Below are positions 13,839 through 56,588 of a stretch of 64,000 nt of DNA, in pieces (the stretch's first letter is position 1; each line of letters starts with the position of its first letter). The notes under the pieces are model-generated. The model did not search any database. It saw only the letters and a program-made list of their open reading frames with translations, and was not told where the DNA came from. Both the position numbers and the translations under genes were made by a program. The stretch spans positions 868,001 to 932,000 of the forward strand of contig NZ_JAAAPL010000001.1 of assembly GCF_011317445.1 (NCBI RefSeq), in the 5' to 3' direction. The DNA comes from Chelativorans multitrophicus (lineage in GTDB: Bacteria; Pseudomonadota; Alphaproteobacteria; Rhizobiales; Rhizobiaceae).

Positions 13839-15071
13839 TTATGCGCCACGGTTTTCATTCACGAACCGCACGATGCGCGGAAGGATCTCCTTGCGAAACC
13901 GCGAGCCATTGAAGACGCCATAATGCCCGACGGAAGGCTGGAGGTGATGATGCCGCTTGCCTGACGGAATGTTGACACAGAGATCATGGGCGGCCTTGGT
14001 CTGGCCGATCCCGGAAATGTCATCATTCTCCCCCTCGACGGTGAGCAAGGCCACGGATCGTATGGAAGCGGGATCAACTCGTTCGGAGCGATGCGTCATC
14101 TCTCCTTTGGGAAGCGCGTGGCGGATGAAGACGGTGTCGACGGTCTGCAGGTAGAATTCCGCCGTCAAATCCATCACCGCCAGATACTCGTCGTAAAATT
14201 CCCGGTGTTTCTCCGCGGAGTCGCCATCTCCCTTCACCAGATGCATGAAGAACTCCTCATGCGCGACGATGTGGCGGTCGAGATTCATGCTCATGAAGCC
14301 CGAGAGCTGAAGAAAACCCGGATAGACCGGGCGCATGAAGCCGGGATTGGGCCACGGCACCGACATGACGACGTTATCGCGAAACCACTCAATGCCGTGC
14401 TCCTGCGCGAGGCGGTTGACGGCGGTGGGGTTCCTGCGGGTATCGATGGGGCCGCCCATCAGCGTCATGGAGGACGGCAGATTGGGGTCGCCACGCGCCT
14501 CCATCAGCGCCACGGCTGCAAGGACCGGCACGGAAGGCTGACAAACCGCCATCACGCTCGCATCTGGCCCCAGCAGGTGAAACATTTCGATCAGGTAGTC
14601 GATATAATCGTCGAGATCGAAATTACCGTAGGAAAGCGGCACCATGCGGGCATCGATCCAGTCGGTGATATAGACATCGGCGTGCGGCAGCATGGCTTCC
14701 ACCGTGCCGCGCAGCAATGTCGCATAATGGCCCGACATGGGCGCGACCATCAGAAGCTTCACATCCGGCTTTCGCCTGGCCGGCAGTTGCCGTTCGAAAT
14801 GTAGGAGACGGCAAAAGGGCCTCGACCACACCTCCTTCTCCTGCACACGAACTTCCTTTCCATCCACCACCGTGGAGGTGATTCCGAATCCGGGCTTGCC
14901 ATAACGGCGTGTGGTGCGCTCGAACATCTCCGCGGCGGCGGCGATCGACCGGCCCCATGTGGTGCTGGAGACAGGATTCAGCGGATTGGAATAAAAGAGC
15001 CTGATCGCATCGGCATAGGTGCGTGCGGGCTGCAGCGCGGCGTGATGAAGCTCGTAAAGCTGATAATACAT
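13839..15071 (-). CDS. phaZ: Intracellular polyhydroxyalkanoate (PHB) depolymerase
   Basis: A 410-residue protein of the intracellular PHB depolymerase family. The nucleophile Cys (about residue 177) sits in the lipase-box-like AVCQPSVPVLAA. An Asp near GENDDISG and a His in PSVGHYGVF complete the triad, and the C-terminal PHB_depo_C region is complete. It degrades stored poly-3-hydroxybutyrate granules in the cytoplasm. A TGC-rich site at 15214-15229, about 145 bases upstream, matches sites in the exo locus and resembles PhaR operators, so it may be repressed by PhaR. It is monocistronic. Confidence 0.92.
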   Translation of the reverse strand: MYYQLYELHHAALQPARTYADAIRLFYSNPLNPVSSTTWGRSIAAAAEMFERTTRRYGKPGFGITSTVVDGKEVRVQEKEVWSRPFCRLLHFERQLPARRKPDVKLLMVAPMSGHYATLLRGTVEAMLPHADVYITDWIDARMVPLSYGNFDLDDYIDYLIEMFHLLGPDASVMAVCQPSVPVLAAVALMEARGDPNLPSSMTLMGGPIDTRRNPTAVNRLAQEHGIEWFRDNVVMSVPWPNPGFMRPVYPGFLQLSGFMSMNLDRHIVAHEEFFMHLVKGDGDSAEKHREFYDEYLAVMDLTAEFYLQTVDTVFIRHALPKGEMTHRSERVDPASIRSVALLTVEGENDDISGIGQTKAAHDLCVNIPSGKRHHHLQPSVGHYGVFNGSRFRKEILPRIVRFVNENRGA

Positions 15072-15213
15072 CGCAGACCTTTCCGGCGAATGCTCAGGCG
15101 GGCAGCGGGCGCTTTGGGCAGCGTACGCGATTTAGGTGCAACGCAATAGAGTCGTGTTTGTGCGCACCGCCTTGAAATACTTGGATTCCTGAACTTATCC
15201 GACGAAAAATGTA

Positions 15214-15229
15214 TTGCTGCGATGCAACA
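15214..15229. promoter_or_regulatory. TGC-rich site upstream of phaZ (candidate PhaR/AniA operator)
   Basis: TTGCTGCGATGCAACA at 15214-15229 is nearly palindromic (TTGC, N6, GCAA). It shares GCTGC-N2-TGCAA with sites at 44112, 45350 and 52328 in the exo locus. It sits in the 211-base AT-richer spacer upstream of phaZ, which otherwise holds no gene. PhaR of Paracoccus and Rhodobacter binds similar TGC-rich sequence. Confidence 0.5.
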
Positions 15230-15282
15230 GAATCAAGGAATAAATCTCGGCAGGCGGCTCAAGAAACCGCGATGAGCCGCAA

Positions 15283-18822: not shown

Positions 18823-19024
18823 ACAAGAGATCCCGCGTTTATTCCAAGGGCACAGCAAAGTCCCCGGTCGGTGCCCGGTATTTAGTTATTCTACTCAGCG
18901 AATGCCATAGTTCGCGGAATTTTGCCAGTGTGTGTAGCCGTACAATATCGGTATGCCTTTTCATCGTTGGGTTGCAGCGAAGGACTCACCGTCTCGAGCA
19001 ACCCACGAGCCACCTCTGCAGCGC

Positions 19025-19054
19025 GCAAAGAAAAGCCCGGGCATGCGCCCGGGC
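19025..19054 (-). terminator. Rho-independent terminator after dnaK
   Basis: A perfect 10-base stem, AAGCCCGGGC (19031-19040) with GCCCGGGCTT (19045-19054), and an ATGC loop. In the minus-strand direction it is followed by a U-rich stretch (complement of 19025-19032). It separates dnaK from dnaJ, although read-through is possible. Confidence 0.85.
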
Positions 19055-19076
19055 TTCGACGTGTTCCGCGATCCGA

Positions 19077-20987
19077 TCAGGCCGACTTCTTGTCGTCCTC
19101 GTCGATTTCTTCGAAATCGGCGTCAACCACATCATCCTTCGCGCCGCCGGTCTCCTCGGTGCCGCCCGCAGCGTTTTCCGCCTGGCTCGCCTCGTAGACG
19201 GCCTGGCCAAGCTTCATGGAAGCTTCCGCGAGCGCGGTTGTCTTGGCCCGGATCGCGTCGGCATCTTCGCCTTCGGTCGCGGTCTTAAGCTCGGCAATCG
19301 CATTCTCGATTGCCTTACGGTCATCCTCGGAGACCTTGTCTCCGTAGTCCTTGAGCGATTTCTCGGTGGAGTGGATCAGCGCCTCGGCCTGATTCTTCAC
19401 CTCGACCGTCTCGCGGCGCTTCTTGTCCGCTTCAGCATTGGCCTCGGCGTCCTTCACCATCTTCTCGATCTCGGCATCGGAGAGACCACCGGAAGCCTGG
19501 ATGCGGATCTGCTGCTCCTTGCCGGTGCCCTTGTCCTTGGCCGAAACGTTGACGATGCCGTTGGCGTCAATGTCAAAGGTCACTTCGATCTGCGGCATGC
19601 CGCGCGGTGCGGGCGGGATACCCACGAGGTCGAACTGGCCGAGCAGCTTGTTGTCGGCCGCCATCTCGCGCTCGCCCTGGAAGACGCGGATCGTCACCGC
19701 GTTCTGATTGTCCTCGGCGGTCGAGAAGACCTGGCTCTTCTTGGTCGGGATCGTCGTGTTGCGGTCGATGAGGCGCGTGAACACACCGCCCAGCGTCTCG
19801 ATGCCCAGCGACAGCGGGGTGACATCGAGCAGCAGGACGTCCTTCACATCGCCCTGGAGCACGCCTGCCTGGATGGCAGCACCCATGGCAACCACCTCGT
19901 CCGGGTTCACGCCCTTGTGCGGCTCCTTGCCGAAGAAGTTCTTCACCGTCTCCTGCACCTTGGGCATGCGCGTCATGCCGCCCACAAGCACCACTTCGTC
20001 AATTTCGCCGGCGGAGAGGCCCGCGTCCTTGAGCGCAGCCCTGCAAGGCTCGATCGTGCGCGTGACGAGGTCCTCCACCAGGCTCTCGAACTTGGCGCGG
20101 GTGAGCTTGATCGCCAGGTGCTTCGGCCCAGTCTGATCGGCGGTGATGAAGGGCAGGTTGATTTCGGTCTGCGAGGAGGACGACAGCTCGATCTTGGCCT
20201 TCTCAGCAGCCTCTTTCAGGCGCTGAAGGGCGAGCTTGTCGTTCTTCAGGTCGATGCCCTGCTCCTTCTTGAACTCGTCGGCCAGGTAATTGACGAGCCG
20301 CATGTCGAAATCCTCGCCGCCGAGGAAAGTGTCGCCGTTGGTCGACTTCACCTCGAACACGCCGTCGCCGATCTCAAGGATCGAGATGTCGAAGGTGCCG
20401 CCGCCAAGGTCGTAGACGGCGATGGTCTTACCTTCCTTCTTGTCGAGGCCGTAGGCAAGGGCGGCCGCTGTCGGCTCATTGATGATGCGGAGCACCTCAA
20501 GGCCCGCGATTTTGCCGGCATCCTTGGTGGCCTGACGCTGGGCGTCGTTAAAATAGGCGGGAACGGTGATGACCGCTTTCTCGACCTTCTCGCCGAGATA
20601 GGATTCGGCGGTCTCCTTCATCTTCTGAAGGATCATCGCGGAAATCTGCGAGGGGGAATATTTCGTGCCATGGGATTCGACCCAGGCGTCGCCATTGTCG
20701 GCCTTTACGATCTTATAGGGGACAAGCTTCTTGTCCTTCTCGACCATCGGATCTTCGAACCGGCGGCCAATAAGGCGCTTGATTGCGAAGAAGGTGTTTT
20801 CAGGATTGGTCACCGCCTGGCGCTTGGCCGGCTGACCCACGAGGCGCTCGTCGGAATCGGTGAAGGCGACAATCGAAGGCGTGGTGCGCGCGCCTTCCGC
20901 ATTCTCAATGACCTTCGCGTCCTTGCCATCCATCACGGCGACGCAGGAATTGGTGGTTCCGAGGTCGATACCGATAACTTTTGCCAT
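19077..20987 (-). CDS. dnaK: Chaperone DnaK (Hsp70)
   Basis: A 636-residue Hsp70. The ATPase domain opens with [16 protein letters not shown] and has the phosphate loop [14 protein letters not shown]. The substrate-binding domain follows from about residue 390, and the C-terminus is acidic ([17 protein letters not shown]), as in proteobacterial DnaK. It folds and protects proteins in the cytoplasm with DnaJ and GrpE. The promoter at 21107-21138 matches the alphaproteobacterial heat-shock consensus, and a strong terminator follows at 19025-19054. Confidence 0.98.
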
Positions 20988-21106
20988 TTATTCTTCTCCG
21001 CTTAGCAGACTGTCAGGACCCATCCGGCGTTCCAGGCAACAGCCCCTGTTCATTTAAAATTTGTCGGAGACGCGTCTGTCACAAAACGCAGCTCCGAAAC
21101 ATGCGG

Positions 21107-41870: not shown

Positions 41871-42886
41871 GCCGCTTCCCTCCGCCGCAGCCCGGCCGAG
41901 AGAAGCTGCAGCCAAAACCCCGCCGACCAGGCGAAATGCATGATCATGGCCGAAGGCCCGGCAAGGAGGAGCTTGGCGTCGCGTTCCCTGATAGCGAGCA
42001 TCGCGCCATAGACCAGGCATGTCGCGGCCCACAGAAGAAAGGGAATAGCAGCAAACCAATAGACGAAGGAAAGCGTGGCCAGGATCGCGAAAGGCAGGAT
42101 CAGGAGCGGCGCCATCTGCCGCACTTTCGGGACGACGCGGTGCTTCAGCACATTGCGCGCCCTGCCCCGGCCATAGCCCAGATACTGCAGGTAGAGGCCC
42201 TTGAATGTGGAGCGCGGGTAATAGGTCATCCGTGTCTTGGCGGTGAGCCAGATGCGATAGCCAGCCCGCCGGAGCCGGTGATCGAGCTCCGCATCCTCGT
42301 TGTGGCTGAAGCTCTCGTCATAGCCACCTACTGCCGTGAAGGCGCTGATCCGCATGAGCGCATGATGGCCGTGATCGATCCATTCGCCCCAAGCCTTGTG
42401 GCGGTGCTTGGAGCCGCCGGTGCCGAGCTTTGAATTCTGCGCAGCAGCCGCAGCACTCTGCACGAGACCGGAGCCTGTGGTCTCCATGGAGACCACAACG
42501 GAATCCGCACCCGTCGCCACTGCCTCTTCCAGAAGCCGGTCGCAGTAATCTTCGGGATAGCCGCCATGCGCGTCGATCCGAATGAAATATTCGACGCCCT
42601 CGCCCAGAAGATGCACGGCAAGATTGACCGCCGCGCTTTGGAGCCGCTTCTTGTTCTCCAGCAAGAGCACAGCCGGGCTATCAGCGGCGAACCGCGAGAC
42701 GATCTCCTGCGTGCCATCGGTGCTTCCGCCATCCACGACCACGATCCGGGCGTTGAGACGGCGGGCAGAAGGCTCCAGCAGCCCCAGGAGGGCGCCGATA
42801 TGCGCGGCTTCATTCAGGCAGGGAATGATGATCAGGCAGGAGGGAGGCCAGCGGTCCGTCATCCGGTCATCGTCTCCATATGTCAT
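41867..42886 (-). CDS. exoA: ExoA-like beta-1,3-glucosyltransferase (GT2)
   Basis: A 339-residue membrane-associated glycosyltransferase. It has LIIIPCLNEAAHIGALLGLL, VVDGGSTDGTQEIV, IRIDAHGGYPEDYCDRLLEE, 'QNSKLGTGGSKHR', WIDHGHHALMRISAF and DESFSHNEDAELD, matching ExoA, which adds the second sugar (glucose, beta-1,3 to galactose) in succinoglycan. Two to three membrane helices follow in the C-terminal third. It overlaps exoL upstream and exoM downstream by ATGA, so all three are translationally coupled. Confidence 0.92.
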   Translation of the reverse strand: MTYGDDDRMTDRWPPSCLIIIPCLNEAAHIGALLGLLEPSARRLNARIVVVDGGSTDGTQEIVSRFAADSPAVLLLENKKRLQSAAVNLAVHLLGEGVEYFIRIDAHGGYPEDYCDRLLEEAVATGADSVVVSMETTGSGLVQSAAAAAQNSKLGTGGSKHRHKAWGEWIDHGHHALMRISAFTAVGGYDESFSHNEDAELDHRLRRAGYRIWLTAKTRMTYYPRSTFKGLYLQYLGYGRGRARNVLKHRVVPKVRQMAPLLILPFAILATLSFVYWFAAIPFLLWAATCLVYGAMLAIRERDAKLLLAGPSAMIMHFAWSAGFWLQLLSAGLRRREAA

Positions 42887-44061
42887 GCTTGAGCGAGAGC
42901 TTGGGCAATTCGGGGCGGTGGGGCAGCCGCCAGGCGATTGAGCCGTGCAACGAAATCAATGCAGTCCTGCCGGTCACAGCTCCAGGTTTTTCGGTCCACC
43001 GCCAGAATGCGGCTGCGCAGCGCCCGGTAGCGAGGCCAATCCATGTCCCCAACGGCACGCTCAAGAGCATCTGGCGTAGCCTCAGGCAGAATGATGCCAA
43101 GTCCACGCTCCTCCAGGAAACGCGCGGTTTCCGTATCGCGCATTGCGATCGGCACCGCGCCGAAACGGCAGCCTTCGTAGAGCCGGTTGGGCAGAAGCCA
43201 CTTCGAATTCTGCCCTTCCTCAAAGAAATCGATAACCCAGGAGAAATGAATTTTGCCGTAGATCGCGGAGAGATCCTCGGGATTGCGATAGGGGCCGTCG
43301 AAAGAAAGAAAGGGTTCGCAGGCAATCGCGCCGGCGAAATCCTCAAATTCCCGGAGGGCGGGCCGGCCCCTTAGCGTCACTTGAAAGCGCCCCTCCGAGC
43401 GGCGGGAGAATTCCGATAGGACCGCGAGCGAGCGACGGCAGCGGAGCGCGCCAAACCAGCCGATGCGCCAGGGCGGCGCGATGCGCTCTGCTGGTTGGCC
43501 ATTTGAATCGCCGGTCGGGGTCAATTCAAAATGCTTGTTCTCAACCAGCTCCACGGGTGCGCTCACCTGCCCTCGCGGCAGGAAGTAATTGCGCACGAAA
43601 GCCGGCGAACTGGTGATGAGGAGCTTGGAATTGCGCGCGAAATAGCGCTCAAGGAAGCGGAGCCCTTTCCCCAGCGGATCTTGCCGCAGCAGCAGGCGGT
43701 GAATATCAAGGCTCTCATAGGCCACGGGAAGATCACCCGCGCCAAGAACCGCCTTTGCCCGAGCAGCAAGCGCGAGCATTTCAAGATTTCGGGCGACAAT
43801 CACGTCAGGCTTCGCGGTGCCCTTCAACTTCGCGCTAAGTGACGCGGCGGCACTCAGAACCGCAACTACCCGCTGCGCGAATTGACCGTCATGACTGATG
43901 CCGAGATCGATCGGGCGGATGCCCTCGATTTCATCGAGCGGCTCTGCGGTCCTGCGGAAGCCCGCGAGCGTCACGTTCGCGCCACCCGCTTTCAACATCA
44001 TCACCCGACGACGAACCGCCGGATCCGCCAGGTTGAAAACGAGATAGAGCACATGCAGCAT
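42883..44061 (-). CDS. exoL: ExoL-like glycosyltransferase
   Basis: A 392-residue protein that opens with LYLVFNLADPAVRRRVMMLK, nearly the ExoL start, and has a GT4-like two-domain layout with ENKHFEL in the centre and NRLYEGCRFGAVPIAM late. ExoL adds the third sugar (glucose) to the succinoglycan repeat. I start at the ATG at 44061; a GTG three codons earlier is the alternative. It is the first gene of the minus-strand operon, and its upstream region carries an inverted pair of TGC-rich sites and more palindromes. Confidence 0.88.
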   Translation of the reverse strand: MLHVLYLVFNLADPAVRRRVMMLKAGGANVTLAGFRRTAEPLDEIEGIRPIDLGISHDGQFAQRVVAVLSAAASLSAKLKGTAKPDVIVARNLEMLALAARAKAVLGAGDLPVAYESLDIHRLLLRQDPLGKGLRFLERYFARNSKLLITSSPAFVRNYFLPRGQVSAPVELVENKHFELTPTGDSNGQPAERIAPPWRIGWFGALRCRRSLAVLSEFSRRSEGRFQVTLRGRPALREFEDFAGAIACEPFLSFDGPYRNPEDLSAIYGKIHFSWVIDFFEEGQNSKWLLPNRLYEGCRFGAVPIAMRDTETARFLEERGLGIILPEATPDALERAVGDMDWPRYRALRSRILAVDRKTWSCDRQDCIDFVARLNRLAAAPPPRIAQALAQA

Positions 44062-44111
44062 TGGACACACCCCATGGTTTGTCCGCCCCCTGGCAAAAGC
44101 TATAACAGCCG

Positions 44112-44206
44112 ACGCTGCACTGCAACATACTGTCCAGAATTTCTTCTGAAATTCAGTTTAATTTTTGTTGCAGTGCACATTTTTCAGTCATTTGATGAAA
44201 TGACTG
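44112..44206. promoter_or_regulatory. exoL control region: inverted TGC-rich pair plus two more inverted repeats
   Basis: ACGCTGCACTGCAACATA (44112-44129) contains TGCACTGCAACA (44116-44127), repeated in inverted form as TGTTGCAGTGCA at 44166-44177, a perfect 12-base pair. Between the arms, GAATTTC/GAAATTC (44137-44143, 44148-44154) forms a smaller inverted repeat. Downstream, CAGTCATTT-GATG-AAATGACTG (44185-44206) is a perfect 9-base stem without a U-run. The block lies 51-145 bases before the exoL start. Repeated arms suggest cooperative binding or looping by a regulator. Confidence 0.65.
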
Positions 44207-44283: not shown

Positions 44284-44712
44284 TCAGTGATCGCCAGATG
44301 CCTTTTTTGGAACAGAGTCAGCTTCATTCTGCTCCTGGAAAATGGCCCGAGAGCGGGCACGCAGATCGTGCAAAAGCGCGATTTGGCGAGACAGGGCCGC
44401 AAGGCGATTCTCATAGTTGATGAGGTCGTCCGTCATCGCGGCGAGCCGGGCGGAGGAGCCCGTCGCGGCCTCTTCATTGTCGATCGCGTCCGCGAGAAAG
44501 CCAGCATTCACCGAACTTTCGCTGTAGCGCCGCTCAAGGCCGTTCCGCTCCGCCGAGATCTGGGCGGCGATCTCCTCAAGCAAATTATCCAGTCGCGCAA
44601 ACCTCTCGCGGTCCGTTTCGCGATCCCGCTGAGGACTCCGGGTCCTGAAGCCAAAGAGTGAGGCCAAACTTCTCTCCGTCCGTCCTTGATTCCTGGCCGG
44701 CGCTGCCGGCAT
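44284..44712 (-). CDS. Hypothetical coiled-coil protein in the exo locus
   Basis: A 142-residue charged protein. After a basic N-terminus (NQGRTERSLASLFGF) it is almost entirely alpha-helical with heptad character (RFARLDNLLEEIAAQISAER, then DLINYENRLAALSRQIALLH). There is no signal peptide, membrane helix or known motif. I start at the ATG at 44712; a TTG at 44727 is possible. It lies between exoX and exoL on the same strand, 222 bases before exoL. The function is unknown; composition looks coding. Confidence 0.55.
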   Translation of the reverse strand: MPAAPARNQGRTERSLASLFGFRTRSPQRDRETDRERFARLDNLLEEIAAQISAERNGLERRYSESSVNAGFLADAIDNEEAATGSSARLAAMTDDLINYENRLAALSRQIALLHDLRARSRAIFQEQNEADSVPKKASGDH

Positions 44713-44902: not shown

Positions 44903-45175
44903 TCAACGAGAGAGGGGCCGCTCGTAAGGAAAATTCTCCTTGGCGGCTCGAGGCTCCTCCGGGGAAGCCGATTCCGGAAGTTCCGGCTCCCGACGCTTGC
45001 GGGACTGAAGAGCCACCCTTCCAAGGATATAGAGGAAATAGCCCAGTTGCAGGACGACAGCGCAGAAAACTGCGCGCAGGGCAATCGATCCAACGGGTGC
45101 CGAGTCGACAAGGGACAATATCGCCACCACCACGATGACGAAAATCATGCCAATTGCAAATTTCGGCAGCGACAT
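44903..45175 (-). CDS. exoX: Exopolysaccharide production repressor ExoX
   Basis: A 90-residue protein with two membrane helices (KFAIGMIFVIVVVAILSL and ALRAVFCAVVLQLGYFLYIL) and a short charged tail, the ExoX/Psi/SyrA pattern that starts MSLP. ExoX lowers exopolysaccharide output after translation, probably by acting on ExoY, and the exoX:exoY dose ratio matters. The open frame reaches 45400, but that part contains the TGC-rich site at 45350 and is not conserved; the ATG at 45175 gives the family start. It is divergent from exoY across 529 bases. Confidence 0.85.
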   Translation of the reverse strand: MSLPKFAIGMIFVIVVVAILSLVDSAPVGSIALRAVFCAVVLQLGYFLYILGRVALQSRKRREPELPESASPEEPRAAKENFPYERPLSR

Positions 45176-45349
45176 CGTTCCGCCCTGCAGGTCTACTTCA
45201 GAAAAGACCGAGCGAAGCGGCCGGTTCCGAGCATCCCCGTAATTATTGTCCCCCGCGGCCTGACACCGCAACTTTGGGACTATATCCGTGTACATGAACG
45301 CCAGCAAGTCGCGCGCAGCCAATCGCCGCCGGCGATAAGCCTCAAAACT

Positions 45350-45367
45350 ACGCTGCACTGCAAAATA
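45350..45367. promoter_or_regulatory. TGC-rich site between exoX and exoY
   Basis: ACGCTGCACTGCAAAATA (45350-45367) differs from the first exoL site (44112-44129) at a single base. It lies 175 bases before exoX and about 340 before exoY. Confidence 0.6.
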
Positions 45368-45704
45368 GAGAAATAACCGGCCGATCATACTTCTCCGCAA
45401 GGAGAAAGCATCGAAAGCATATCCTTCTTTTTTTCGTGATAGCTAGCAATCTCAAATGTTATTCCCGGTTTGTAACGTAATATTACATAGATGTTAAAAA
45501 ATTGCCGTATGTATGTCTTCGCATAACCTGCAAATTTTTCCATATGCAAGCATAGTTCATCCACTTCACAAAAGTTTCAAATAGATCACTTTTTATGCAA
45601 CACCTAATTATAATTTGAGCGCAAAATATTTCTTCCTCCCAAAAGAAGTCATATTGCGCCGCACCATAAATTTGCTAACCTAGCGTAACCTGAGAGGTAG
45701 CCGG
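45368..45704. promoter_or_regulatory. AT-rich upstream region of exoY with inverted repeats
   Basis: A 337-base stretch of much lower GC than its surroundings, with no gene. It holds the palindrome GTAATATTAC (about 45476-45485) and an imperfect inverted repeat at 45619-45659 (GCGCAAAATAT paired with ATATTGCGC, with TTCTT/AAGAA inside), which ends 46 bases before exoY. AT-rich upstream regions of this kind are typical binding places for MucR/Ros-type zinc-finger regulators of exo genes; that link is inference. A GAGAGG ribosome site precedes the exoY start. Confidence 0.55.
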
Positions 45705-46394
45705 ATGGGGCGTTTCATGCGGGAAATGGCCAAGTCTGTGAACTTCGGCACGGCAGAGGCGGATCTCGACCTTCCCCCCCCTCCCGGAGGATTGCTGAAG
45801 CGCAGCTTTGATATCACGGGAGCGCTTTGCGCCCTCATTCTCTTCAGTCCGCTGTTTTTGCTCCTGGCTGCGCTCGTGAAATTCTCCGATGGTGGGAGCG
45901 TTTTCTACGGGCACAGCAGGATCGGGCGTGGCGGACGCCCTTTTCATTGCCTGAAGTTCAGGACGATGCGGGAGGATGGAGAGGCTGTCCTTAAAGCCTA
46001 CCTGGACGAAAACCCGGAAGCGCGAGCGGAATGGGAAGCCACGCGCAAGCTGAAGAACGATCCGCGCGTGACGGCGGCCGGAGCGGTACTTCGCAAGCTC
46101 AGCCTGGACGAGCTGCCGCAGCTTCTCAACATTCTCGCGGGCGAGATGAGCATTGTCGGCCCCCGCCCCGTGGTTCAGGACGAACTGGAACGGTATGGGA
46201 CCGCGGCGGTCTTCTATCTCAAATCGCGGCCGGGCCTGACGGGCCTGTGGCAGGTGAGCGGGCGCAACGACGTGTCTTACGCGGCGCGCGTGGCTTTCGA
46301 TCGCCAATATGTGGAGAACTGGTCGCTCACGCAGGACATCTACATCATCGCGAAGACGGTTCCGGCCGTCTGCCTGTCGCGAGGAAGCTACTGA
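45705..46394 (+). CDS. exoY: ExoY undecaprenyl-phosphate galactosyl-1-phosphate transferase
   Basis: A 229-residue bacterial sugar transferase. One membrane helix ([20 protein letters not shown]) precedes the catalytic region with [12 protein letters not shown], the [20 protein letters not shown] block, EMSIVGPRP, and the C-terminal [16 protein letters not shown]. It starts the repeat by loading galactose-1-phosphate on the lipid carrier. The upstream AT-rich region carries several inverted repeats, and ExoX is its likely inhibitor. exoF follows. Confidence 0.94.
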
Positions 46395-51514: not shown

Positions 51515-52276
51515 CTAGTTGAGACTGCAAGCCACCGATTCGGGAAACTGGCATGCCTCACCTGGCGCCGTATACGCCACCCAATCCACCTGCATCTCAA
51601 GCTTTCGGCCAGGATCCGCGAAGGCGCCCATCCAATCCGTGAATGTCTCGCTTCCCCAATGGCTGAAGAAAATCTTCTGCGGGTTGACCGGCAGATCTGT
51701 TCCCGTTGCCTCATGGACGAGCTTGCCGTTGACATACCAGCGAAGCCGCCCTTCTTCCCATACGAAGGCATAGTGGTTGAATTGCGTCGTGCCACCCGGC
51801 ACGTCCACGGTGCTGCCATGGTGCGGCTTGCCCGAGACGTAAGTGTTGAGACTGACCTTCGAGGTGTCCTTCGTCAGCACCTCGAAATCGATCTCATCGT
51901 GAGGAGAGTTCGTGAAGCTGAAGAAAGCAGCGTTGATGCCCGAACCTTCGTCCGTCTTCATCCGCGCTTCGTAGACGCCGTAGCCGAAGCGAGCCGTCGT
52001 CTGGATCTCCGCGCAGGAATATTGCCGGTTGCCGGAAGGCTTCTTTTCATAGCCAAGCGTGACGATACCGCCGGCGACACTCACCTCGCTCTTCGACCAG
52101 GTGCAGTTCTGCCATTCTCCATTGGCCCAGCCATCGGAGACATACCAGCGGGACCGGTCAAAGCTGTCGAAATCATCGAAGAAGGAGGTCCCCGCCGTCT
52201 GCGAAAAAGCTACCCCCGTTCCACCGGCCAACACGGAGGCAATAACCAAAACGCGCCGGAAACAATTTTCTGCCAT
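51515..52276 (-). CDS. exoK: ExoK-like endo-beta-glycanase (GH16)
   Basis: A 253-residue secreted glycoside hydrolase family 16 enzyme. A signal peptide (about 1-26) precedes the jelly-roll domain; the catalytic motif is HDEIDFEVL with Glu128 as nucleophile and Glu132 as acid/base. ExoK cuts nascent succinoglycan into shorter chains. In Sinorhizobium exoK belongs to the exoL operon, but here it stands with exoT and exoV. A TGC-rich site lies about 52-70 bases upstream. Confidence 0.9.
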   Translation of the reverse strand: MAENCFRRVLVIASVLAGGTGVAFSQTAGTSFFDDFDSFDRSRWYVSDGWANGEWQNCTWSKSEVSVAGGIVTLGYEKKPSGNRQYSCAEIQTTARFGYGVYEARMKTDEGSGINAAFFSFTNSPHDEIDFEVLTKDTSKVSLNTYVSGKPHHGSTVDVPGGTTQFNHYAFVWEEGRLRWYVNGKLVHEATGTDLPVNPQKIFFSHWGSETFTDWMGAFADPGRKLEMQVDWVAYTAPGEACQFPESVACSLN

Positions 52277-52327
52277 ATCGGGACCTCATCATTCTGCGGG
52301 TGTTCCGCTTCAGGAAGCGACTTCCAG

Positions 52328-52346
52328 ATTGCTGCAATGCAATATA
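52328..52346. promoter_or_regulatory. TGC-rich site upstream of exoK
   Basis: ATTGCTGCAATGCAATATA (52328-52346) fits GCTGC-N2-TGCAA and contains the palindrome TTGC-N6-GCAA, the same form as the site before phaZ (TTGCTGCGATGCAA). Confidence 0.55.
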
Positions 52347-52380
52347 GGATGGCACCGCGGGGCGGCGTCATCAACCCTCA

Positions 52381-55421: not shown

Positions 55422-56588
55422 ATGCGCGTCAGTTTCGCCGCTTCGCGGTATTTTGTGTGGTTACTGTTGCTGGTCGCCGCTGGCTGCGCGAACCCCGAAA
55501 ACCATCGCCTGATAGCGCGCACAACCGCGCCCGCGACCTCAGCCCAAATCGCCGGAGAATATCGCATCCTGGTTGCGACGACGCGTGCGGAAACGACCGA
55601 ACCCGGCGTCATTTTCTCCGGCGACCGCTCGCCGGCCACCACCTATGCCTTTGTCGATGTTTCGGTGCCGGCAGTCCACCAGACGGGCGAGCTTGAACGC
55701 TCCCCCTCTCCGCAGGTTGCCGATCCCGCGCGCTATTTTGCGGCGCGTCGGCTCGGGATCTATCGCGACGAACAGGCCTATGGCAAAGCCCTCCGACAAA
55801 GCATCGAAGCGCATGACGGCCGAGCACTCGTCTTCATCCACGGCTTCAATACCGGGTTTGACAACGCAGTCTACCGCATGACGCAGATTGCGCATGATGC
55901 CGGCTTCAAAGGGACGCTTATCCTTTTTTCCTGGCCCTCCGCCGCACGCATCGTCGACTATATCTACGACAACAACAGCGCCACCGCGAGCCGCGACGCT
56001 CTGGAGGATCTGCTGCGGCTCGTCGCCCGATCCGGCGCGCAGAGGATCAATGTCGTTGCCCACTCCATGGGCGGCTGGGTGTCGATGGAGGCCCTGCGCC
56101 AGCTCGCCATGACCGACGACAAGGATCTTGGCGGGCGGCTCGCCGATGTGGTGCTTGCCTCGCCGGATATCGATGTGGACGTTTTCAAGAGCCAGATGCG
56201 CCGTTACGGTACGCCGGACCGTAGCTTCTTTATCTTCACATCCAGAAACGACCGGGCGCTGGACCTTTCAAAGATCATCGCAGGAAATCGTGCGCGCGTG
56301 GGCGGCGCAATCGATGCCGCCGAGCTCGCCAAATATGGCGTCATCGTCATCGACGTGACGGATGTCTCCTCTCCCGACCGCATCAACCACACGAAATTCG
56401 CGGAGAACCCATTGCTGGTGCGGCTTTTGGGAGAGGGACTGGTGGACACGGAGGAGCCCGCCTCCGCCGACCAGCAACTTGTGCAGCGCATCAACTCGCT
56501 CGCCGGAAGCATCGGCCAAACGATCGGCGCGGCGGCAGACATCGTTATCACCACTCCGCTCGACGTGCTCGAAGCAGTCGCGGATTGA
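55422..56588 (+). CDS. Alpha/beta hydrolase of the DUF900 family, lipoprotein
   Basis: A 388-residue protein. The N-terminus (YFVWLLLLVAAGC) ends in a lipobox, so it is predicted to be a lipoprotein. The hydrolase domain has VFIHGFNTGFDNAVYRMTQI and the nucleophile elbow VVAHSMGGWV, followed by DVVLASPDIDVDVF, all typical of DUF900. It may be an esterase in the cell envelope; substrates are not known for the family. The ATG at 55422 is chosen over a GTG two codons earlier. It is followed by the imelysin cassette after 99 bases. Confidence 0.85.
   Translation: MRVSFAASRYFVWLLLLVAAGCANPENHRLIARTTAPATSAQIAGEYRILVATTRAETTEPGVIFSGDRSPATTYAFVDVSVPAVHQTGELERSPSPQVADPARYFAARRLGIYRDEQAYGKALRQSIEAHDGRALVFIHGFNTGFDNAVYRMTQIAHDAGFKGTLILFSWPSAARIVDYIYDNNSATASRDALEDLLRLVARSGAQRINVVAHSMGGWVSMEALRQLAMTDDKDLGGRLADVVLASPDIDVDVFKSQMRRYGTPDRSFFIFTSRNDRALDLSKIIAGNRARVGGAIDAAELAKYGVIVIDVTDVSSPDRINHTKFAENPLLVRLLGEGLVDTEEPASADQQLVQRINSLAGSIGQTIGAAADIVITTPLDVLEAVAD

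Follow-up and report, generated by a model that had tools for sequence, protein, structure and literature searches.

Putative PhaR operators at PHB and exopolysaccharide gene promoters of Chelativorans multitrophicus

The boxes found ahead of phaZ, exoL, exoY and exoK in Chelativorans multitrophicus, together with those ahead of its phasin gene phaP, are in all likelihood operators of PhaR (AniA), a PHB-granule-binding repressor. Judged from sequence, the boxes are very probably real and functional, and would form a further case of a known regulatory link. What is new is the reach of this link, the extra boxes, the box of the detached exoK in the genus and the near-fixed distance between box and -10-like element. 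The presence, rank and conservation of the sites, their spacing to -10-like elements and the occurrence of a single phaR gene were all established by computation.

Results

The first-pass annotation of the window, by which we mean the whole stretch of 64,000 nucleotides that was analyzed, had pointed to TTGCTGCGATGCAACA at positions 15214-15229, upstream of the phaZ ORF (13839-15071, minus strand), and had noted that it shares GCTGC-N2-TGCAACA with a site at exoL. This was confirmed, and the two sites proved to be the sole exact copies of the pattern in the 64 kb, at 15216-15229 (phaZ) and 44114-44127 (exoL). With up to two mismatches, 14 matches were found as compared to 8.0 expected, and 14 was reached in 4 of 100 shuffles. 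The loose pattern by itself is weak evidence for a PhaR box, and because the 14-mer with mismatches was too weak, a matrix of published PhaR sites was used.

The matrix was built from 25 PhaR sites listed for S. meliloti in PMC12542648, namely those on fragments scored there as 'Efficient' or 'Weak'; unevaluated and unbound sites were excluded, and one of the four exoH sites was kept. Since it includes the S. meliloti phaZ, exoL, exoY and phaP sites, the matrix is not blind to orthologous promoters. The leave-one-out scores of its training sites ranged from 12.0 to 27.1, and the window sites, whose scores fall within this span, are therefore ordinary members. The top five were the exoL distal (23.0 bits), phaZ distal (21.5), exoK (19.4), exoX/exoY (19.3) and exoY proximal (19.1) sites, followed by sites at 56476 (16.9, inside a coding ORF), 44110 at exoL (16.1), 4794 (14.0) and 15131 at phaZ (13.9). 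Thus five sites scored at least 19 bits, as compared to a mean of 0.083 and a maximum of 1 in 60 dinucleotide shuffles of the whole window. When four intergenic segments, picked after the sites were known, were shuffled, the mean was 0.003 such sites and none of 1000 shuffles reached five. At a threshold of at least 12 bits, nine sites were seen, as compared to a mean of 1.58 and a maximum of 6 in 100 Markov sequences of equal length.

The phaZ gene encodes an intracellular PHB depolymerase (TIGR01849, 660 bits, cut-off 300.75). The box distal to it, which is the site originally noticed, spans 15212-15232 on the minus strand and ranks second in the window. By eye, it has one outer mismatch to the published degenerate consensus, yet it scores 21.5 bits, and a possible promoter of its own (-35 TTGATT, 17 bp, -10 TACATT) lies around it. 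The proximal box, CTCTATTGCGTTGCACCTAAA in coding orientation (15131-15151, minus strand), is of moderate score and lies 80 bp ahead of the start codon, where many relatives have a box in a similar place; TACGCT, which fits TANNNT, was seen by eye at offset +6 from it. Among congeners, phaZ is preceded by a box at -161 (21.6 bits) in one and at -165 (14.4 bits) in another (L117 and L118). The evidence for a predicted PhaR box at the distal phaZ site is strong. phaZ and exoL (42883-44070) lie approximately 30 kb apart here and in two congeners (G118:C43 and G121:C1).

By gene content, the window holds a succinoglycan-type exo cluster, in which exoY, exoF, exoQ, exoL, exoA, exoK, exoP and exoN-type genes occur together according to Pfam and NCBIfam domains and tblastn synteny. 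With the exception of exoK, the exo gene names are presumed from domain and place. The first gene of the leftward run, a glycosyltransferase gene (42883-44070, minus strand) whose PF13579 score is just under the cut-off and whose relatives lie in exo neighborhoods at 55 named loci, is presumably exoL, as judged by synteny and the S. meliloti gene order. Its proximal box (44110-44130, minus strand), the exoL site of the first-pass annotation, is followed by the -10-like TAGCTT at offset +8, and its distal box (44163-44183, minus strand) is the top site of the window. A small protein encoded at 44903-45175 (minus strand) has tblastn relatives in exo clusters, for example at 54% in Chelativorans sp. 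J32, and gave no match in a Pfam search; we assume from its position that it is exoX-like. Another small protein, at 44284-44712, has no Pfam match; at 11 of the 55 named loci a relative of it is encoded next to exo genes, and in three Mesorhizobium loci its gene carries a PhaR-like box of its own.

Between exoX and exoY, a box at 45348-45368 (plus strand) lies 357 bp ahead of the start of exoY (45705-46394, plus strand), which encodes a sugar-phosphate transferase (Bac_transf, PF02397, 209 bits). The exoY proximal box (45649-45669, plus strand) lies 56 bp ahead of the ATG, with the -10-like TAACCT at offset +7; boxes are also found at -56 in two other loci (L149 and L150). Both this box and the exoL distal box match the published degenerate consensus fully. 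exoK (51515-52276, minus strand; NF052392, 361 bits, cut-off 350) encodes an endo-1,3-1,4-beta-glycanase and is detached from exoL, and its box (52327-52347, minus strand) lies 71 bp from the start codon. The exoX/exoY and exoK sites proposed earlier were thus recovered by the matrix, at 19.3 and 19.4 bits; the exoL distal site, which is stronger than the proximal one, and the exoY and phaZ proximal sites had been overlooked. Elsewhere in the window, an ORF at 18930-21005 (plus strand) matches PF10712, 'NAD-specific glutamate dehydrogenase', with 649 bits and lies antisense to an HSP70/dnaK gene (19077-20987, minus strand; PF00012, 961 bits). PF10712 resembles a family of shadow ORFs, in which case the glutamate dehydrogenase annotation would be spurious.

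The genome (4.82 Mb, 15 contigs) contains one phaR gene, identified as the single match to PF05233 (PHB_acc) and by TIGR01848 (144 bits, cut-off 109.45), and one PF09361 gene, the phasin gene phaP, which also matches TIGR01985. The first-pass annotation had proposed a search for phaR and for the motif ahead of phaP or phaR. Ahead of phaP there are two boxes, one of 28.4 bits located 90-110 bp from the phasin start and one of 16.4 bits located 19 bp from the first. The best score upstream of phaR was 9.9 bits, a weak site; the S. meliloti protein binds its own promoter weakly (PMC12542648).

When two degenerate patterns were pooled genome-wide and the resulting 57 distinct places were ranked by the matrix, the stronger phaP box came first, and the exoL distal, phaZ distal and exoY proximal boxes ranked 5th, 7th and 12th. 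The strict published consensus gave 30 palindromic places, as compared to 17 for the reversed control, and the second pattern 38 as compared to 20. Neither pattern captures the exoK and exoX/exoY boxes, which are absent from the list. As their enrichment is approximately twofold only and real sites escape them, lists from these patterns do not amount to a regulon. We inspected the gene context of 14 regions around top-ranked matches. Sites in coding sequence (L109, L110, L113 and L115) are probably chance matches; others are intergenic, ahead of an ANTAR response-regulator gene, of SDF symporter/serC, and of pepP-like and hspQ-like genes (the last two named by eye). By eye, none of these 14 contexts was recognized as that of ppdK, zwf, gltA or ppa, which are PhaR targets in S. 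meliloti. The second-best site among the ranked places (27.7 bits; L103:2360-2380, G000:C11:146359-146379) follows what appears by eye to be a hairpin and a T run and has no confident gene nearby; a search of L103 with Rfam for an MmgR-like sRNA gave nothing at gathering score. A 24.9-bit site (L114:2367-2387, G000:C1:104366-104386) stands directly ahead of the response-regulator/ANTAR gene, for which a role in nitrate-assimilation control is a guess.

We also examined where the boxes lie relative to -10-like elements. For each promoter, the gene-nearest box of at least 11 bits within 140 bp was taken, and the start of TANNNT was counted after the 21-mer. At phaZ, where 45 loci were entered and 10 had no qualifying box, TANNNT began at +7 in 24 of 35 promoters, as compared to 0.29 expected per offset, and at exoL, where 18 boxed loci were entered, it began at +8 in 14 of 17 promoters, as compared to 0.17 expected, both counts being of related sequences. 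By eye, the offsets in this genome are +7 at phaP and exoY, +8 at exoL and +6 at phaZ. The TTGC of the box falls where a -35 hexamer would be, 15-17 bp ahead of the -10-like element. Promoters frequently have a pair of boxes, as at phaP, exoL and often phaZ. In a generic sigma-70 scan, neither the phaZ nor the exoL/exoY regions yielded a promoter; the spacing test used the looser TANNNT. The near-fixed distance at phaZ and exoL is as expected for a repressor that would cover the -35 region, and the predicted geometry at phaZ agrees with that of the S. meliloti phaZ box, which is listed 39 bp ahead of a mapped transcription start (PMC12542648). The exoK box overlaps TATATT and does not have the -35/-10 repression geometry.

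Within the GTDB genus that holds Chelativorans (16 genomes, including that of the window), sites of at least 15 bits were found at 16/16 phaZ, 7/7 exoL, 7/7 exoY and 3/7 exoK loci, as compared to permuted-matrix means of 0.09, 0.025, 0.03 and 0.00, in the same order; one permuted matrix scored 9 of the 16 phaZ loci. The exo scans covered seven orthologues each and left out weak matches (L139 for exoL, L147 for exoK, and exoY at no more than 59% identity). Since exoL occurs in only 7 of the 16 genomes, the exo cluster counts as accessory within this genus. The three boxed exoK genes are those of the genomes in which exoK lies far from exoL (the window's own, G118 and G121); the other four lie approximately 120 bp upstream of exoL and have no box of their own, and the exoK-exoL gap has a box. 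At phaP, all 13 loci had a site of at least 15 bits, and at 12 of them there was a pair of boxes spaced 19-20 bp; the remaining locus (L185) is a partial match with a shortened upstream stretch, and three of the 16 genomes gave no phaP match.

Beyond the genus, a phaZ match was present in 53 of 61 family genomes. Among the best 30 of these 53 loci, 23 had a site of at least 12 bits and 19 one of at least 15 bits; column-permuted matrices gave means of 0.18 (maximum 3) and 0.07, respectively. At the named loci, four of whose genomes (Chelativorans sp. J32, C. salis, C. xinjiangense and C. alearense) also belong to the genus set, sites of at least 15 bits were found for exoL in 17/55 (control mean 0.05), for exoY in 18/34 and for exoK in 2/27, and for none of 50 exoA, 23 exoF and 12 exoX loci. 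The boxed exoL loci comprise all of L018-L032 plus one each of Aureimonas (L038) and Sphingomonas (L065). Of the loci that lack an exoL box, eight of Rhizobium type (L033-L037, L039, L062 and L071) have an exoY box approximately 359-378 bp upstream, which resembles the 369 bp of S. meliloti; a ninth, L058, holds no exoY. Some strong sites also appeared in intended negative controls, namely exoT (4/29), exoU (1/41) and the small gene beside exo (3/11). Three of the four boxed exoT loci are Mesorhizobium, with approximately 25% identity to the exoT of the window, and exoT may therefore be a PhaR target there. In Mesorhizobium loci L019, L020 and L021, boxes of 24.9-25.8 bits lie 71-79 bp ahead of a flippase-like (exoT-like) gene.

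These results support the predicted control of exoL and exoY by PhaR, as the candidate sites are kept in all orthologues scanned within the genus and partly outside it. The exoK site is far less conserved, both in the genus and among the named loci. A rule by which a detached exoK is boxed and an exoK next to exoL is unboxed holds only in part outside the genus. Among the named loci, one detached exoK carries a box (L018), and in the three Mesorhizobium loci L019-L021 a box of 20.6-20.9 bits lies ahead of a small gene preceding the detached exoK. The stronger statement that every detached exoK has a box was dropped, as no box of at least 15 bits was seen within 900 bp at two loci of Aminobacter and four distant ones in which exoK is likewise detached (L022, L024, L046, L056, L057 and L072).

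Of the 55 named-locus genomes, 50 were tested for PhaR; 39 had it and 11 did not. An exoL or exoY site of at least 15 bits was present in 27 of the 39 PhaR-bearing genomes as compared to 0 of the 11 PhaR-less ones (Fisher 3.6e-5, ignoring descent), a contrast that is confounded by descent because 10 of these 11 are Devosia. A lower-scoring exoY site (11.5 bits) is present at L041, a locus of a genome lacking PhaR. Twelve PhaR-bearing genomes had no exoL/exoY site at 15 bits, and a link to exo is thus not shared by all genomes with PhaR.

Discussion

Could the boxes serve something other than PhaR? Several bacterial regulators use TGCA-rich palindromes, and the core of the boxes, TGC-N3-GCA, is short, so that another palindrome-binding regulator with TGC half-sites might use them and their likeness to PhaR sites might be convergent. 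We consider this unlikely: the matrix derives from PhaR sites and scores the phaP box highest among the genome-wide matches, none of the 11 PhaR-less genomes has an exoL/exoY site of at least 15 bits, and PhaR is known to target phasin and depolymerase promoters (PMC12542648, PMC6201568). It is very improbable that the palindrome at 15214-15229 is instead the intrinsic terminator stem of the gene upstream of phaZ. A scan for terminator-like structures does give a minus-strand stem there, TGTTGCATCGCAGCA then ATACATTTTT, but the stem has only six pairs, one such site compares with a shuffle mean of 0.4, conservation tracks the PhaR matrix, and many relatives have a -10-like element after the proximal box.

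That the shared words arose by chance in AT-rich intergenic DNA is scarcely tenable. The mild enrichment of the mismatched 14-mer (14 as compared to 8.0) and the 16.9-bit site within coding sequence would fit such an origin, which is contradicted by the dinucleotide shuffles, both of the entire window and of the segments, by the column-permuted matrices and by the conservation at orthologous promoters.

If the boxes are PhaR operators, binding, repression and dependence on PHB in this organism would follow what experiments have shown in S. meliloti. PHB-free PhaR would bind TTGCRNYGCAA-type boxes over the -35 and spacer regions of the phaP, phaZ, exoL and exoY promoters, as well as the box near the start of exoK, and would block RNA polymerase. 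A build-up of PHB would draw PhaR to the granule, and its sequestration would de-repress the phasin, depolymerase and exopolysaccharide genes together. The first-pass annotation had offered direct PhaR control of the exo genes as a molecular route for a carbon trade-off between PHB and exopolysaccharide. The route itself is not new, as binding and exo promoter repression had already been described in S. meliloti in 2025 (PMC12542648). As for the trade-off, titration of PhaR by PHB predicts co-induction instead, and PHB accumulation should therefore raise the expression of phaZ, phaP and the exo genes together.

A broader proposal, which we advance tentatively and rate somewhat short of an even chance, is that the PhaR box is a promoter-embedded operator, in which TTGC serves as the -35 element at a near-invariant distance of 16-17 bp to TANNNT at phaP, phaZ, exoL and exoY in many genera. 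PHB-gated exopolysaccharide production would then be old in Rhizobiales, re-forming at rearranged exo promoters and absent without phaR (Devosia). Examples of re-formed boxes would be those of the detached exoK in Chelativorans and of the two-gene unit with exoK in the three Mesorhizobium loci.

Putative boxes of a PHB-to-exopolysaccharide switch are present in promoters of Chelativorans, Mesorhizobium, Aminobacter and others, and such a switch is therefore probably not confined to nodule symbiosis. PHB-free mutants of these bacteria are predicted to make less exopolysaccharide. The boxes give exact sites for mutation and suggest a way to tune the yield of exopolysaccharide or PHB. A literature search that covered titles and the starts of abstracts, with most subscription papers outside its coverage, found among the papers listed no report of PhaR control of exo genes in Chelativorans, Mesorhizobium or Aminobacter, and the word Mesorhizobium does not occur in the main text of PMC12542648.

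Among known PhaR systems, that of Rhodobacter sphaeroides (CTGCNNNGCAG) is similar in its palindromic GC core and in the repression of phasin and phaZ (cited in PMC12542648 and PMC6201568); a link to exopolysaccharide is absent from the passages on it in these two papers. In Bradyrhizobium diazoefficiens USDA110, PhaR has a TGCRNYGCASMA consensus and binds phaP, phaZ1, phaZ3 and an exoZ-containing operon, but the exopolysaccharide genes are other ones and PhaR is linked there to PHB synthesis genes (PMC6201568).

The closest counterpart is the PhaR/AniA regulon of S. meliloti, described by Lagares et al. 2025 (PMC12542648). Its PhaR site is WNWDDNYGCRNYGCRNHHWNW, and EMSA data cover fragments of phaP1, phaP2, phaZ, exoH, exoL and exoY, among others. 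PhaR represses exoY, exoL and exoH, and PHB relieves the repression; in a phbC strain, deletion of phaR restores exopolysaccharide. The aniA mutant has lower PHB and higher exopolysaccharide, similar to that of R. etli. The same box, WNWDDNYGCRNYGCRNHHWNW, and the same core targets, phaP, phaZ, exoL and exoY, recur in our predictions. The exoY distal box lies 357 bp from the ATG here as compared to 369 bp in S. meliloti, and the two phaP boxes are 19 bp apart as compared to 18 bp at phaP1. ExoK is among the PhaR-repressed proteins of S. meliloti, and exoK has a candidate box here. Unlike in S. meliloti, exoL is the first gene of a separate leftward run, and the detached exoK carries a box of its own. 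The S. meliloti list gives one box each for exoY and phaZ, as compared to two at either gene here, the additional one at exoY being proximal.
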